Below are positions 1 through 20,977 of a stretch of 20,977 nt of DNA, in pieces. Within the stretch, counting starts at the first letter, position 1. Every line of letters begins with the position of its first letter. The stretch comes from Halocafeteria seosinensis (Eukaryota > Sar > Bigyra > Bicosoecida). The notes under the pieces were generated by a model that had not been told where the DNA came from, did no database searches, and worked only from the letters and a program-made list of their open reading frames with translations. The position numbers and the translations under genes were made by a program. Location of the stretch: contig LVLI01001623.1 of the NCBI GenBank assembly GCA_001687465.1, forward strand, positions 1-20,977, read 5' to 3'.

Positions 1-140
1 GCTTTGAAGTCACTCGTTTATGCTGCCTCTCTCCTAGTGGAACAGCGGGCCTGTAGCTGCCAGACACAGGCGCCAGCTGCTACCTAAGTGTAGCGGCTAA
101 CATCCAGCTGCCGGTGGGCCATCAGTCACATCTTCGTCGT
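1..140 (+). repeat. Element A, copy 1 (cut by window start)
   Basis: The first 140 bases match 16081-16220 at 138 of 140 positions, in the same orientation. The match stops at a shared right end (TTCGTCGT at 133-140), after which the flanks are unrelated. The left part of the element lies outside the window. Two hairpins are visible: stem I pairs 49-54 (GCCTGT) with 66-71 (ACAGGC) around an 11-base loop, and stem II pairs 79-83 (GCTAC) with 90-94 (GTAGC) around a 6-base loop. The palindrome CAGCTG occurs on both sides of stem II. A third copy lies inverted at 19772-19958. No transposase or other enzyme is encoded, so it would have to move non-autonomously if it is mobile. Confidence 0.9.
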
Positions 141-14812: not shown

Positions 14813-16033
14813 AAGTCAGTATGGTGGTGCATGTAAAATATCGTCACTGGAGTTCTCTGGTGGGCTCAACCGACTCTGCAACTTTCAAAGCATGAGCTAG
14901 CAAGCATATTCATAGAGAGAGAAAAAAATGCGACAAATATTTAATTGCCGTCAATCATTTGAGCCGCGTAGACGCAGCGTTTTGAGTAAGCCCCGTTGAG
15001 TTACCCTTGGAACGGAAGCTCCAAGGGCAGATGCATTACTGTGCTTATCTACGACCAACCACCTGCACGGATGAAAGAATTGGACTCCAAAGTAGCTACA
15101 AGCACTATAACCTCCCAATGGCGGTGCCCCAACAGAGCTGGCTCCTGATGTTGGGAAATAAGAGGAGTCAGCTAGCCACCACCCACCAAACGTGGAGGGG
15201 CCGTCCGAGGGAAGCGTTCCTCCTCAAACGCTCCCAAGTTGGCTCGAAGTTCCCACAATGACCCCGTCTCGGAAAAACCACTCTGGACGCAGTTCGTCCT
15301 TCCCCCTCCTCGAAAAGGACATACGGCAGACCCAAAGGGACTGTGTCCCGAGGCTGGGCACAAGAGGACATCTTGGCAGGGCCTTGCAAAGGGGACAAAA
15401 AGACCCCGGGGACCCGAGCTTCCCCTTGGGAGCGAGTGACTCTTTGGAACTCTTCCCTCCGGCGACGCCAGCGCGTATACACGCCAGAGCAGTCCATCCT
15501 CTCCATCATGGAGCGCTCCATCGGTTGCTGACCATGGTTGGCCAATGCTACAGCCACTCTATCTTTGCCGAAACACTCTCTCACCCCTCTAGTCCCCCAA
15601 ATGAATGGGAAACAGCAGGGTTCTGTCCCTCCATGTTGGGGATGGCACTCTCTGCCCGAGTGTCCGGGGACTTTCCCGAAGCCATTGACTTGTCGTCCTA
15701 CTCCACTATTCGAACAAACAGTGGGGGGCAACATGGCTCCAAACGCACCTCAAAACCACGCAAATCTACGCGACTAACCTCATGAAGGCAGCCTTAAGGC
15801 TTAGGCCCTTAGGCAGGGGACCCAACTTCAACTTCAACGTAAGCGGCCAGTCAAGCTTTCAGGAATTCGAGTGAGAGATACCATATTTTCCTCTGTCTGG
15901 TGTCTTTCCTTTCACACTGTGTGGTCGGTGCACTGCGGTGCTTGATGCAGTACATGCACATACGGGCACATGCACATCGTGAGGAACTGGCCAACCGACG
16001 ACTTCCTGAACTTCGCACTTCTTGACTTCTTCA

Positions 16034-16222
16034 CATGGGATGTGACGGAAACGGGTACTGAAGTTCGGGTCTGCGCCAATGCTTTGAAGTCACTCGTTTA
16101 TGCTGCCTCTCTCCTAGTGGAACAGCGGGCCTGTAGCTGCCAGACACAGGTGCCAGCTGCTACCTAAGTGTAGCGGCTACCATCCAGCTGCCGGTGGGCC
16201 ATCAGTCACATCTTCGTCGTCG
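16034..16222 (+). repeat. Element A, copy 2 (complete)
   Basis: The match to copy 3 runs from CATGGGATG at the left to TTCGTCGT at the right, 187 bp with 7 differences, and both ends are abrupt. Near the left end GATGTGAC occurs and near the right end its complement GTCACATC, giving a subterminal inverted repeat of 8 bases. The two conserved hairpins lie at 16129-16151 and 16159-16174. TCTTCAC occurs at both edges (16028-16034 and 16223-16229), a possible 7-bp target-site duplication. The left half reads as an open frame that continues into flanking DNA, but it holds no recognisable domain. Confidence 0.9.
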
Positions 16223-16882
16223 TCTTCACGGAGCGCTGCGATTCGAAAGCTCCTGAAGTTGATGGCCAGCAACGTGCTAAAGACATATCGCTAAGTAGTG
16301 TGCCGAGCAGGTTTTCGACGTTCAAGGCTTCACCTGCTCTCTGTAAAAATGCAACCCATGCAAAGAAACCAGTTCAGTGGCGTCACCCACTGACTCAGGA
16401 GGCACACAAGTACAATCGCAAAGTGAAATCAAATGCAATGACTTCTCTTTAGTTAAGGGCAATGCGTAGACTAAAAGGAGTACCAGGGGAAACTTCAGCG
16501 GGCACTGGATGGCGTGCGGAGATCTCCAATCTCAACCAACTGACGGTTTATGCTTGGTCGATTTAGAAAGGTTTATATCTCACGGTCTAGCGTAGTATGC
16601 AGACTAGATGGGCTCAGATGGGCAACACTGTGTGTTGGCAACACACTGAAGACCTACTGGGCCAGGCTGTAAACTTACCTGAGGTTGCACGTGACGCCGC
16701 ACTCTTTCGGTTAAACTCTAAGCGAGAAGTTAATGGATCGAAAACCGCAAGCTACATGCGTAAGCAGAAGTTATATTAACAAGCGAAGCTCCCACATCTC
16801 GTCTTGGGGTCTTAGTAGTTGCTAACCGCGTATTTCACCGATAGGACTTTGGCAGAGTTGGTTATCTGGTTCCGATTGGGAA

Positions 16883-17768: not shown

Positions 17769-19062
17769 CTACGCAAGTGCGAAAGAGTTTGCCTATCCCC
17801 CACCAGTGCCGCTAGTTGTGAATCCAATGGAATTGTACCTCGAGCAGACGGCCAGTCCCATTGTGCGAAGGTCAACAGCGCGGTTTCAGAAGAGGGGTGA
17901 TACCAAATGCAGTCGCCAGAGCATATAGCTCTCAAGCGGGAACGCGTCAACACGATCGATAGACGCAGAGACGTTCCAAACTGGTGAGATCAATTGGGTG
18001 TTCTATATCTCGCAGTGCTAGTGTCAAATATGTATAGAACGCTACTTCACGTATGCGTATACGATAACTATAAGCAGCACGGATCAAGAATAGCCTTATA
18101 ATACTCCTCCACACTCGGAGCCTTGGTACTACTAAAAAATATTGCAGTTCGTGATCATGCATAGAATTAATAGACTTGGAGAGGAGCTGTGGTCTGGGAT
18201 GTATAACCGCTAATTTACTCTCACATCATGAGTCACATGCTTCCATCGGATGTAAGGGATTGTGCTCCCATGCGGGAATGTAATGTGCAGTAAAAGGAAA
18301 GAAAGAAAGATGTACCGGCAGGCATAATGGCTGCTTGTATGCAGCTCTGGATTCCGATGGAAGACTTCAAGGAAAGTCGTATTCATTACTCTCTTATTCC
18401 TAGCTATGACGCTAAGATAACGCTACAACGGCTGTCAAGACCTGTATCCAATTCATGTGTTGCCCGAATTGCCCATACCAGTTGGTTTTCCGTTGCTTTT
18501 TGTATCCATCTGCCGTGTCGGGGTCTTCGCTTTCCCCTGAACAGCTGTAGGGGCAACATACGATGCAAATTCCTGATGCTTACGCTGTGCACTGAGAAAT
18601 CTGCGACCGCGACATATTCTCCTCCCTTGACTTCTCGATACTGTCGTTCCGCTGGTTCCGTTTGAGCTGCTTGATTTCTTCTCGGGCACTCGCAAGTTGC
18701 TCCTTCAGAGATGATGCATTTTCGTCAGCCTCGGAGTAGTTTTCGTTTGTTTGGGAAGCTGTTGGCCTAGTTGCAACACTCAACGGATTCATGTGTGTTT
18801 GCAATGCTGCGGAGGAAGGTCTCCGTGACAACTGCCTGGAAGAACCCGAGGGACCTGTCTTGTATATGTCGACTTGGATTCTCTCTCCGCAAATGACCTG
18901 TCCCATGCACACGAAGAATCTGGTCATGCTTACCCGAGTCTTGTTCCGTCGAAGTAGCATAAATGACAATACTGGAAATGCTATCACATACACTAGCAAT
19001 GTCACTAATCCCAGCGGGAATAACAACCTCAAGTGTACCGGAGTCTCCCTAAACTGAATGTC

Positions 19063-19193
19063 TGTACGACCATACACACACATATGTGACAGATAGCCCA
19101 TCGGCCGGGGAGTTGACTGCATCCTCTTAACGAGGAGCGGTATGCGCCCGTGTTAAGCAGCGACGGGCCCGCTGTTCCTGCATGTTCGACCAT
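19063..19193 (-). mobile_element. Element B, copy 1, with 11-bp target-site duplication
   Basis: Read on the minus strand, ATGGTCGAACA (19193-19183) precedes a 109-bp insert (19182-19074), and ATGGTCGTACA (19073-19063) follows it. The two flanks match at 10 of 11 positions. Removing the insert and one flank rejoins the membrane-protein frame exactly across the site. The insert starts TGCAGGAACAGCGGG and ends in a TG-rich tail, like a small retroelement. It shares the hairpin core of element A and is nearly identical to 20887-20977, which starts at the same TGCAGG. No enzyme is encoded. The insert contains an in-frame TAA for the host gene. Confidence 0.85.
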
Positions 19194-19771
19194 CCATGTA
19201 GAGACTCCCGTCCGGGGGATCGGTAGGTGTACAATTGAAAACTTCCATAGTCATCCGCATCAGGAATATGTAAAGTACGTACATCACAACGATGAAAGAC
19301 GACAATCAACGCGTTCAAATGCGTGTGGCGCTGAGACGCAGGACTCCTCAGAACCAGTAGCTTATACGCATATCGTGCAACATAAACAACCAAGAGCAGG
19401 CCAACAGCTCCCAGAGGAAGACCAATTGTGGCTAACCATCTTTGTTGAAATTCTGGTGGAGGTTTCATGTAGCACCCAGGTGCCGCCAGTTCTAAGTTGA
19501 GATTAAAGAATTATAATGCTTGAAGTGTTCTCTCCATCGCCGTGGGCCACTGAACCCGCGTTCGTGCAAACAGCGCAAGTACCTGGAAGTAGTCCACACC
19601 AATGGGAAACGCAGCGAGACGAATTCCCTTACTGTTGATGATATGTCCGCCAATCACAGCACCGATTGCTGCCAAAAGAAGGAGCACGCGCAAAAGCCAC
19701 GTCACTAGATAGGTAGAGTGGATAATTTATGGCCTACCGGCTGAATATTCTACCTGGTAGTATGCTAAATG

Positions 19772-19958
19772 ACGACGAAGATGTGACTGATGGCCCAACG
19801 GCAGCTGGATGTTAGCCGCTACACTTAGGTAGCAGCTGGCGCCCGTGTCTGGCAGCTACAGGCCCGCTGTTCCACTAGGAGAGAGGCAGCATAAACGAGT
19901 GACTTCAAAGCATTGACGCAGACCCGAAATTCAGTATCCGTTTCCGTCACATCCCATG
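19772..19958 (-). repeat. Element A, copy 3 (complete, inverted)
   Basis: This is 187 bp, matching copy 2 at 180 positions, with the same abrupt ends. It lies in the membrane-protein pseudogene between the Cys-rich block and the first membrane span, in the gene's sense orientation, so it is in an intron or disrupts the coding region. Stem I here reads CCTGT against ACGGG, with one G-U wobble, intermediate between copies 1-2 and the B elements. No clear target-site duplication could be found around it. Confidence 0.9.
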
Positions 19959-20754
19959 GGACCTCCGCATGGCTAGCTAGCAGTTCATTGCTTAATAGGA
20001 TTGGGAGGATCTTGTTGTTAGTTTCCTCTTGCACGTATAAGTCAATTCGTGTAGCTTGCTCTTCGGCTGTTCTCAAATCCGGCTTCCACCCGAGACGTGC
20101 TATCCGTCTCAGTTCTTCGTCCTCCTGGCTCTCGTTCCCCATAGGTGCCATGAAAAGCGACAGCAACATGAAGACTGTCCGGTGTTTTTGCCTTGCTCCC
20201 CACAACAAGCTTGCACATCGAAGGATACACAGGCACGCGATGCAACACACTTCGTTTTTTGCCATCCTTCATCTGAATAAGTTCAGTCCACGAATCGTTC
20301 CCCACCAGGACATACTACACCTGGTTCCTCTTCTGCGCAAAACAAACATTCTTCTCCACTTAAACCATTCCATCCTCGTTTACATTCACTAACAATAAAC
20401 TCCAGCCACTGAGGGAAGAACACCTCCCTTTGAGCAACGGACAGCGTGATGCTCTTGGCACACACTTCGTCAGGTTGGGTTTCACAGCGCGCTTCTCGGT
20501 GATTTATAAGAATCGCAGATGTGCAGGTCAATTTGCGAATCCTAATATCAATTGGTTTGTTCGCCCCTACCGGGCCAAAATTTGAGCCATCAATGGTTAT
20601 AGTTGCACCCTCTGCATCGCGAGTATTTGGCTTCACGTTGAAAATTCGAGGCGGATCATATGAAAATACCCGGGAACGATCTGTCCTGCTACCCACTGTG
20701 ACTGCAACTTCTAGGTCTTTTCCAACGCCCTCGGGAAGTCTGCTTGGACAGTAT

Positions 20755-20886
20755 CTGGCATGTTCCCAGCCACAGCATTAACTCACGTTGGCATCATGCA
20801 AAAGATATATATTTGTGGGGATTCCTACCCGATGCCTCCTGAGCTTAACCAGTGCTGTGTTCCCCCACGGCGCATGTCAGCAAGGC
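20755..20886. other. Intron or upstream part of the membrane-protein pseudogene
   Basis: An acceptor-like CCAG on the minus strand ends at 20755, just before the recognisable IPT coding sequence. The frame is closed by a stop a short way further upstream (near 20780). No exon was recognised here. Confidence 0.35.
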
Positions 20887-20977
20887 TGCAGGAACAGCGG
20901 GCCCGTCGCTGCTTAACACGGGCGCTTACCGCTCCTCGTTAAGAGGATGTGGTCAACTTCCCGGCCGGTGGGCTATC
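20887..20977 (+). repeat. Element B, copy 2 (cut by window end)
   Basis: The sequence from TGCAGGAACAGCGGG onward matches element B copy 1 with only a few differences, on the opposite strand. Stem I pairs 20901-20906 (GCCCGT) with 20918-20923 (ACGGGC), and stem II pairs 20934-20937 (CCTC) with 20943-20946 (GAGG). Its left boundary coincides with the start of the insert in copy 1, supporting TGCAGG as the true element start. The right end lies outside the window. Confidence 0.88.

Follow-up and report, generated by a model that had tools for sequence, protein, structure and literature searches.

A candidate reverse transcriptase recognition structure at the 3′ ends of two LINE-type families in Halocafeteria seosinensis

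Repeat copies and genes in the window

The window, meaning the whole stretch of 20,977 nucleotides analysed here, is the entire contig C548 of a 30.6-Mb, 605-contig assembly. Its proteins include WD40, 2OG-oxygenase and TIG-domain types and, together with an RNase MRP RNA on the minus strand (14971-15763; 77.8 bits, E 2.4e-20), they mark the DNA as eukaryotic. The RNase MRP RNA spans 793 nt against a model of 266 positions, which implies large insertions. A protein encoded in the window, whose matches point to an acyl-CoA synthetase, shares 100% identity with a EukProt entry (transcript GECG01013429.1) across 75% of the query.

Five copies of two repeated elements, termed A and B, were recognised in this DNA, which opens inside A copy 1 and closes inside B copy 2. 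Both B copy 1 and A copy 3 lie within 18580-20777 on the minus strand, where the open reading frames (ORFs), read by eye, make up one apparent membrane-protein gene; a TIG domain is located inside it at 20283-20774. The copies and their parts are as follows.

1..140, plus strand: A copy 1, its 5′ side lost at the contig start
43-46/56-59 (S1), 49-54/66-71 (S2) and 75-83/90-98 (hairpin II), plus strand: parts of A copy 1
113-140, plus strand: 3′ block and tail of A copy 1
16031..16222, plus strand: A copy 2, 5′-truncated
16028-16034 and 16223-16229: TCTTCAC flanks of A copy 2, the first overlapping the alignment by 4 nt
19067..19073: target-site duplication ATGGTCG (minus strand) on the 3′ side of B copy 1
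19074..19182, minus strand: B copy 1, a short 5′-truncated insertion with the tail TATGTGTGTGT
19187..19193: target-site duplication ATGGTCG (minus strand) on the 5′ side of B copy 1
19771..20140, minus strand: A copy 3, including part of an 83-aa (249-nt) repeat unit upstream of the 3′ end
20822..20977, plus strand: B copy 2, a 5′-truncated LINE 3′ end cut by the contig end, starting between 20822 and 20828
20895-20898 with 20908-20911, plus strand: proposed pseudoknot helix S1 of B copy 2, CAGC with GCTG, letters checked
20901-20906 with 20918-20923, plus strand: stem I (S2) of B copy 2, GCCCGT with ACGGGC, letters checked
20928-20937 with 20943-20953, plus strand: hairpin II of B copy 2, ACCGCTCCTC with GAGGATGTGGT, 10 bp and one bulged T
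20940..20942, plus strand: TAA stop codon of the LINE ORF, in frame and in the loop of hairpin II; the frame was read in the window, L087 and L099
20967..20977, plus strand: start of the conserved 3′ block, GGTGGGCTATC(TGTCACAT), the remainder lying past the contig end

The uncertainty in the start of B copy 2 reflects its matches to related genomic copies, which begin at 20822 for L095 and at 20828 for L099 and L094; its last bases and its tail fall beyond the contig end. In B copy 1 the extra bases AACA (19183-19186) precede the target-site duplication. The 91 bases at 20887-20977 are almost certainly the 3′ end of a non-LTR (LINE-type) retrotransposon copy of family B, and A is the 3′ end of a second LINE-type family.

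Two LINE-type families behind the copies

The 19-nt 3′ motif GGTGGGCYATCWGTCACAT had 729 genomic matches with at most three mismatches, a count that pools A and B, compared with 9 for a reversed control. A genome search with the B element as query yielded 420 candidates, and each of the 40 that were scored was 99-100% identical. Among the scored B matches with a known contig extent, 27 of 30 fall within 500 nt of a contig end, indicating that the assembly breaks in this repeat. Copies of B have variable 5′ starts and a common 3′ end, TGTCACATTTG(TG)n, beyond which the DNA is unrelated; copies of A likewise have variable 5′ starts and a fixed 3′ end, here with a (TCG)n tail. Target-site duplications of at least 6 nt flank 10 of 38 copies, compared with 18 of 1406 mismatched pairs, and duplications of 7 nt flank 7 of 38 compared with 4 of 1406. 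Sixty alignments had been dropped before this count (22 whose truncation was not established, 33 whose flanks were short and 5 duplicates). A looser first count found duplications at 12 of 56 copies, compared with 5.5% of 3080 pairs, and the stricter one missed the ATGGTCG of B copy 1, part of which had been removed by tail trimming. The fixed 3′ end, variable 5′ truncation, repeat tails and duplications in excess of chance together identify LINE insertions. Most of the A and B copies are probably dead. A terminal-inverted-repeat transposon had been considered by eye on account of the similarity of GATGTGAC at A ends, and was dropped given the varied 5′ ends.

A further hallmark of a LINE, a reverse transcriptase (RT) in the same element, was found for B through a chain of loci. 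L099 (contig C166), a locus with frame shifts, starts with the C-terminal ~123 codons of the L085 ORF, continues through an RNase H and then a chromodomain, and reaches the hairpins and the tail; the part that it shares with L085 is 95% identical at the DNA level. The L085 ORF carries an RT domain (RVT_1, 55.5 bits). L099 itself is without one, and no copy joining the RT domain itself to the 3′ end was found; the link is made by the frame-shifted L099 and by relatives. Two of these, the metagenomic proteins P0001 and P0002, each carry RT, then RNase H, then a weak chromodomain on a single polypeptide (RVT_1 at 28.2 and 29.7 bits, respectively; cut-off 29.6). An RVT_3-type RNase H scores above cut-off in all four metagenomic relatives (P0001, P0002, P0124 and P0125). 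The chromodomain (Chromo) reaches 30.7 bits, against a cut-off of 25.1, on a stretch of L095 read across one stop codon; it lies below cut-off in P0001 (15.5), P0002 (19.6) and P0124 (20.4), and the domain search saw none in P0125. When a profile of the four relatives and L085 was compared with solved structures, it matched RNase H at E 1e-14 and MPP8-type chromodomains at E 4e-4, with a weaker match to the HP1 chromodomain (0.13).

The segment between RT and RNase H in the B protein has motifs which we take to resemble those of a restriction-like endonuclease. It returned no match in Pfam, NCBIfam or PDB sequences, and the predicted structure of P0002 was too poor (pLDDT 35) for the segment to be read. 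No APE endonuclease was seen in the recovered part of B, a sequence from which the upstream half is missing. DNA of the metagenomic relatives was sought in a viral-contig scan with P0002, which found none. Among the papers listed in our literature searches we saw no report of a chromodomain in a non-LTR element; passages in three papers place it in LTR elements (PMC5348765, PMC5006619, PMC6338049).

The 3′ end of B outlasts its ORF: a copy at C6:65366-65788 has only 70% amino-acid identity in the RNase H/chromodomain part yet matches the 3′ motif exactly and the hairpin II pattern. A divergent relative with 38% identity, L101 (C77:12871-13900), has an RNase H end and two chromodomain-like repeats by eye; these repeats had no Pfam match, and no GGTGGGC-type block was seen by eye in the DNA downstream. 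Other long RT ORFs in the genome, L080-L083 (1188, 1004, 1152 and 592 aa), indicate that it contains more than one LINE lineage; L082 has an RNase H-type match over the cut-off that is N-terminal to RT, and L081 one below the cut-off after RT.

What is known of the body of A consists of an ORF in which an 83-residue (249-nt) unit is repeated in frame and in tandem, varying in number, before the 3′ end (L037, L041, L052). The ORF had no Pfam match, and no RT was found for A. An RT fragment in C464 lies downstream of an A copy and is thus not that copy's own. The A ORF ends in the same final block as B: of the final 16 residues, 10 are the same in the two proteins, which have no resemblance elsewhere. 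Because the known body of A is this repeat-bearing ORF, we rejected its identity as a SINE; ARAGORN found no tRNA in the window.

Architecture of the 3′ module and tests of its fold

A preliminary description of this DNA had proposed that A and B keep the same two hairpins with compensatory base changes. Our analysis supports a relationship between A and B and bears out that both hairpins recur at corresponding positions and still pair where their letters have changed. Its letters for stem I around an 11-nt loop were confirmed in all five copies: CCTGT/ACAGG in A at 39-73 and 16119-16153, CCTGT/ACGGG in A at 19839-19873 (minus strand), and CCCGT/ACGGG in both B copies. The stem comprises 6 bp, GCCYGT/ACRGGC, and so is one pair longer than had been described. 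The second hairpin, said to sit at a like place with another sequence, is present and longer than had been described, with 9 bp in A (AGCTGCTAC/GTAGCGGCT) and 10 bp plus one bulged T in B (ACCGCTCCTC/GAGGATGCGGT, with GTGGT in the copy at 20887). The conserved flanking blocks are also there, and the upstream CAGC is able to pair with the GCTG of loop I as suggested.

Both families read CAGC-GG-GCCYGU-n-GCUG-6 nt-ACRGGC, so that a 4-bp S1 and a 6-bp S2 are separated by loops of 2, 1 and 6 nt. Such geometry obeys the rule for H-type pseudoknots, and we infer that the upstream CAGC and stem I fit a predicted pseudoknot of this type. It is followed by a short hinge, hairpin II, 33-34 nt with the conserved GGTGGGCYATCWGTCACAT, and the tail. 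In both families a TAA stop codon occupies the loop of hairpin II (CTAAGT in A, GTTAA in B), so that the ORF takes in the predicted pseudoknot, with the whole of stem I, and the 5′ strand of hairpin II; the other strand of that hairpin falls past the stop codon, as does the 3′ block.

Hairpin II gave the better evidence of a selected fold. Aligning five typed rows by hand on their structure, two of them from A and three from B, shows that 6 of 9 pairs differ between A and B on both sides, one differs on one side and two are the same, and all nine pair in both. This count takes the two hairpins to be homologous, an assumption that their position and the stop codon common to both favour without proving. 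Against dinucleotide shuffles of the typed majority sequences, the B hairpin was equalled in stability by 4 of 1000 and the A hairpin by 52 of 1000, which is borderline.

Tests of stem I and S1 gave less. Stem I alone was not significantly stable, being equalled by 79 of 1000 and 57 of 1000 dinucleotide shuffles. Across 38 distinct rows, S1 was paired in 96.0% of cells with no two-sided change and has the same letters in the A and B majority sequences; S2 was paired in 97.3% of cells, and its two-sided changes are confined to a single pair (CG:17 UG:14 UA:5), the remaining five having none. Among the 26 distinct A rows this pair is UG in 17, UA in 7 and CG in 2; B has 25 distinct rows, and the 23 of them that could be scored all have CG. 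A genome-wide pattern search gave 11 rows among the matches listed, 9 with CG, 1 with UG, 1 with UA and none broken. Two-sided change in one of the ten S1/S2 pairs was equalled by 146 of 500 shuffles; 16 of the 500 reached the covariation score and 27 the count of two-sided cells, although relatedness inflates this control. Both changes in the stem I series are transitions at CpG sites, and the window is only mildly depleted in CpG (0.86 of expectation), so mutation bias may possibly lie behind them. The stepwise covariation that had been described amounts to one base pair, and we consider it too weak as proof of structure.

Nor did whole-element folding set these copies apart. For the five copies in the window, folding energies do not beat those of shuffles (z -0.38 to -1.39), and the minimum-energy folds contain stem I in two of five and the complete hairpin II in three of five; the A copy at 16119 folds without either. 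In the predicted ensemble of B the pair probability of stem I is 0.04, since GGCCCGT pairs with GGTGGGC instead. When the five typed rows were folded as an alignment, stem I reached 0.53-0.56 and the rival GGCCCGT/GGTGGGC pairing up to 0.44. A third hairpin (GGTGGGC/GTCACAT), possible in both families, was discarded; its letters are identical in the five typed rows and it reached 0.01 in the alignment fold.

Within families, changes at paired and unpaired positions numbered 25/987 and 25/1433 in A and 22/950 and 34/1332 in B, so that stems and loops vary at similar rates. Pairing was kept by 16 of the 25 stem changes in A (9.5 expected), mostly through one inherited pair, and by 12 of 22 in B (13 expected). 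Stem positions thus do vary without compensation inside each family, the pattern that the preliminary description had named as evidence against a selected fold, as expected of dead copies; between families they do not, hairpin II still pairing after change on both sides of most of its pairs. Support for a selected fold is mixed: good for hairpin II, weak for stem I, and ordinary in whole-element energy.

Interpretation of the shared 3′ module

We suggest that the 3′ module, a predicted pseudoknot plus a stem, is quite probably a stringent-type LINE 3′ recognition element common to A and B, and that it likely serves recognition by RT. The sharing of this module means that each element has a partner with a common 3′ end, as is characteristic of stringent LINEs. 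In the proposed mechanism, the last ~100 nt of the RNA would fold into the S1/S2 pseudoknot, the hinge and hairpin II, with the conserved GGTGGGC-GTCACAT block and a short tail of repeats after them. The encoded protein would bind the module and begin target-primed reverse transcription (TPRT) at the tail, and incomplete copying would leave 5′-truncated copies. A would be mobilised by the enzyme of B, on which it may depend, or by a sister enzyme reading the same tag.

Known systems offer precedents. Stringent-type LINE proteins bind a 3′ structure of their own RNA and start reverse transcription there, and the 3′ stem-loop of ZfL2 is bound by ORF2 (PMC4176376). As in UnaL2 and ZfL2-1/-2 in the same report, A and B have a conserved 3′ hairpin at the site where RT would start and a tail common to two elements; those are L2-clade LINEs with a 3′ stem-loop, whereas A has its own ORF and is not demonstrably a SINE. 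Avian and turtle R2 elements use a 3′ pseudoknot-hinge-stem in TPRT; insertion is lost when the pseudoknot is broken and regained when it is restored (PMC12180492, PMC12222951). Like these A-clade R2 elements, A and B have a short 3′-terminal pseudoknot, predicted in their case, followed by a stem near the RT start site. Unlike those R2 elements as described, their module is partly coding with the stop codon in the loop of the stem, and they have 33-34 further nt, a microsatellite tail and dispersed copies. In its domains B resembles Dualen/RandI in being a LINE with RNase H (PMC4640811, PMC3636483, PMC3747384), and a table row in the last of these pairs the Chlamydomonas SINEX-1_CR with RandI-2/DualenCr3. 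The restriction-like endonuclease of Dualen/RandI has a counterpart in B by motif resemblance only, and B differs from what is described of them by an added C-terminal chromodomain, with no APE in its recovered part. Chromoviruses and the oomycete element Chronos also have a chromodomain at the C-terminal side of a retroelement protein; as described, they are LTR elements with an integrase, whereas B has LINE-type 5′ truncation and tails (PMC5348765, PMC5006619).

What is unusual in A and B is that the proposed recognition module overlaps the end of the ORF. One alternative is that the nucleotide pattern reflects the protein. Under such a coding constraint an Arg-rich C-terminal peptide would be selected and the complementarity of stem I would be a by-product: the codons of Ala-Arg ... 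Arg-Ala (GCN CGN ... CGN GCN) are self-complementary. The location of stem I inside the ORF would allow this, as would the confinement of the A/B protein match to the last residues, and in three of the four relatives (P0001, P0124 and P0125) the terminal 24 residues are 92-96% identical, compared with 49-72% for the rest. However, stem I persists in A even though Cys and, in the ACAGG form, Gln take the place of the Arg of B, and parts of the module lie beyond the stop codon in both families. Comparing the 11 shared codons between A (ACGGG form) and B gives three differences, each replacing the amino acid and none synonymous; these are too few for proof, but they are not what protein constraint predicts. 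Moreover, P0002 and P0124 have only 13 of 24 terminal residues in common despite 79% identity elsewhere, while P0001 and P0124 are 96% identical over the last 24 residues and 51% elsewhere. As the terminal residues do not track protein relatedness, the 3′ end seems, from these sequences, to travel as a module apart from the enzyme. This behaviour fits an RNA tag, and it is possible that the Arg-rich peptide is under selection of its own. As an account of the whole pattern we regard coding constraint as unlikely.

Shared descent without structural selection is another explanation, in which template switching or recombination gave A a B-like 3′ end, and pairing is the outcome of chance and low divergence. 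It is in keeping with the near absence of two-sided change from S1 and S2 and the ease with which shuffles match it, with the lack of any such change within either family, and with the ordinary fold energies. It accounts poorly for hairpin II, which has diverged at most positions while retaining all nine pairs in both families, and which in B was so seldom equalled by shuffles; we therefore judge this explanation quite unlikely. The preliminary reading of selection on a fold is partly supported, well for hairpin II and weakly for stem I. It had suggested perhaps a structured RNA, and a free-standing RNA gene or self-cleaving ribozyme now has hardly any credibility: strong hairpins and conserved flanks would suit such an RNA, but the copies are the 3′ ends of LINEs, truncated and bearing tails and duplications, and the block is partly coding. 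An Rfam search of the window gave no match to either family at E up to 1, its sole match being the RNase MRP RNA elsewhere, in agreement with the initial remark that no ribozyme class was recognisable.

Returning to the recognition element, its overlap with the ORF leads us to a more tentative idea, which we consider possible but doubtful. In a lineage of LINEs with a chromodomain, the last ribosome would melt the partly coding handle until translation was over, whereupon the handle would refold for the newly made RT, giving a built-in switch from translation to retrotransposition, in a module that moves independently of the enzyme.

In summary, what had been noted as a series of hairpins is now a testable candidate RT-recognition element from a LINE with an uncommon set of domains (RT, RNase H and chromodomain). 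If the overlap is functional, the end of translation would be linked in cis to the start of reverse transcription, which would bear on the preference of LINE proteins for their own RNA. Because the module is common to A and B, it also poses the direct question of which 3′ tags one RT accepts.
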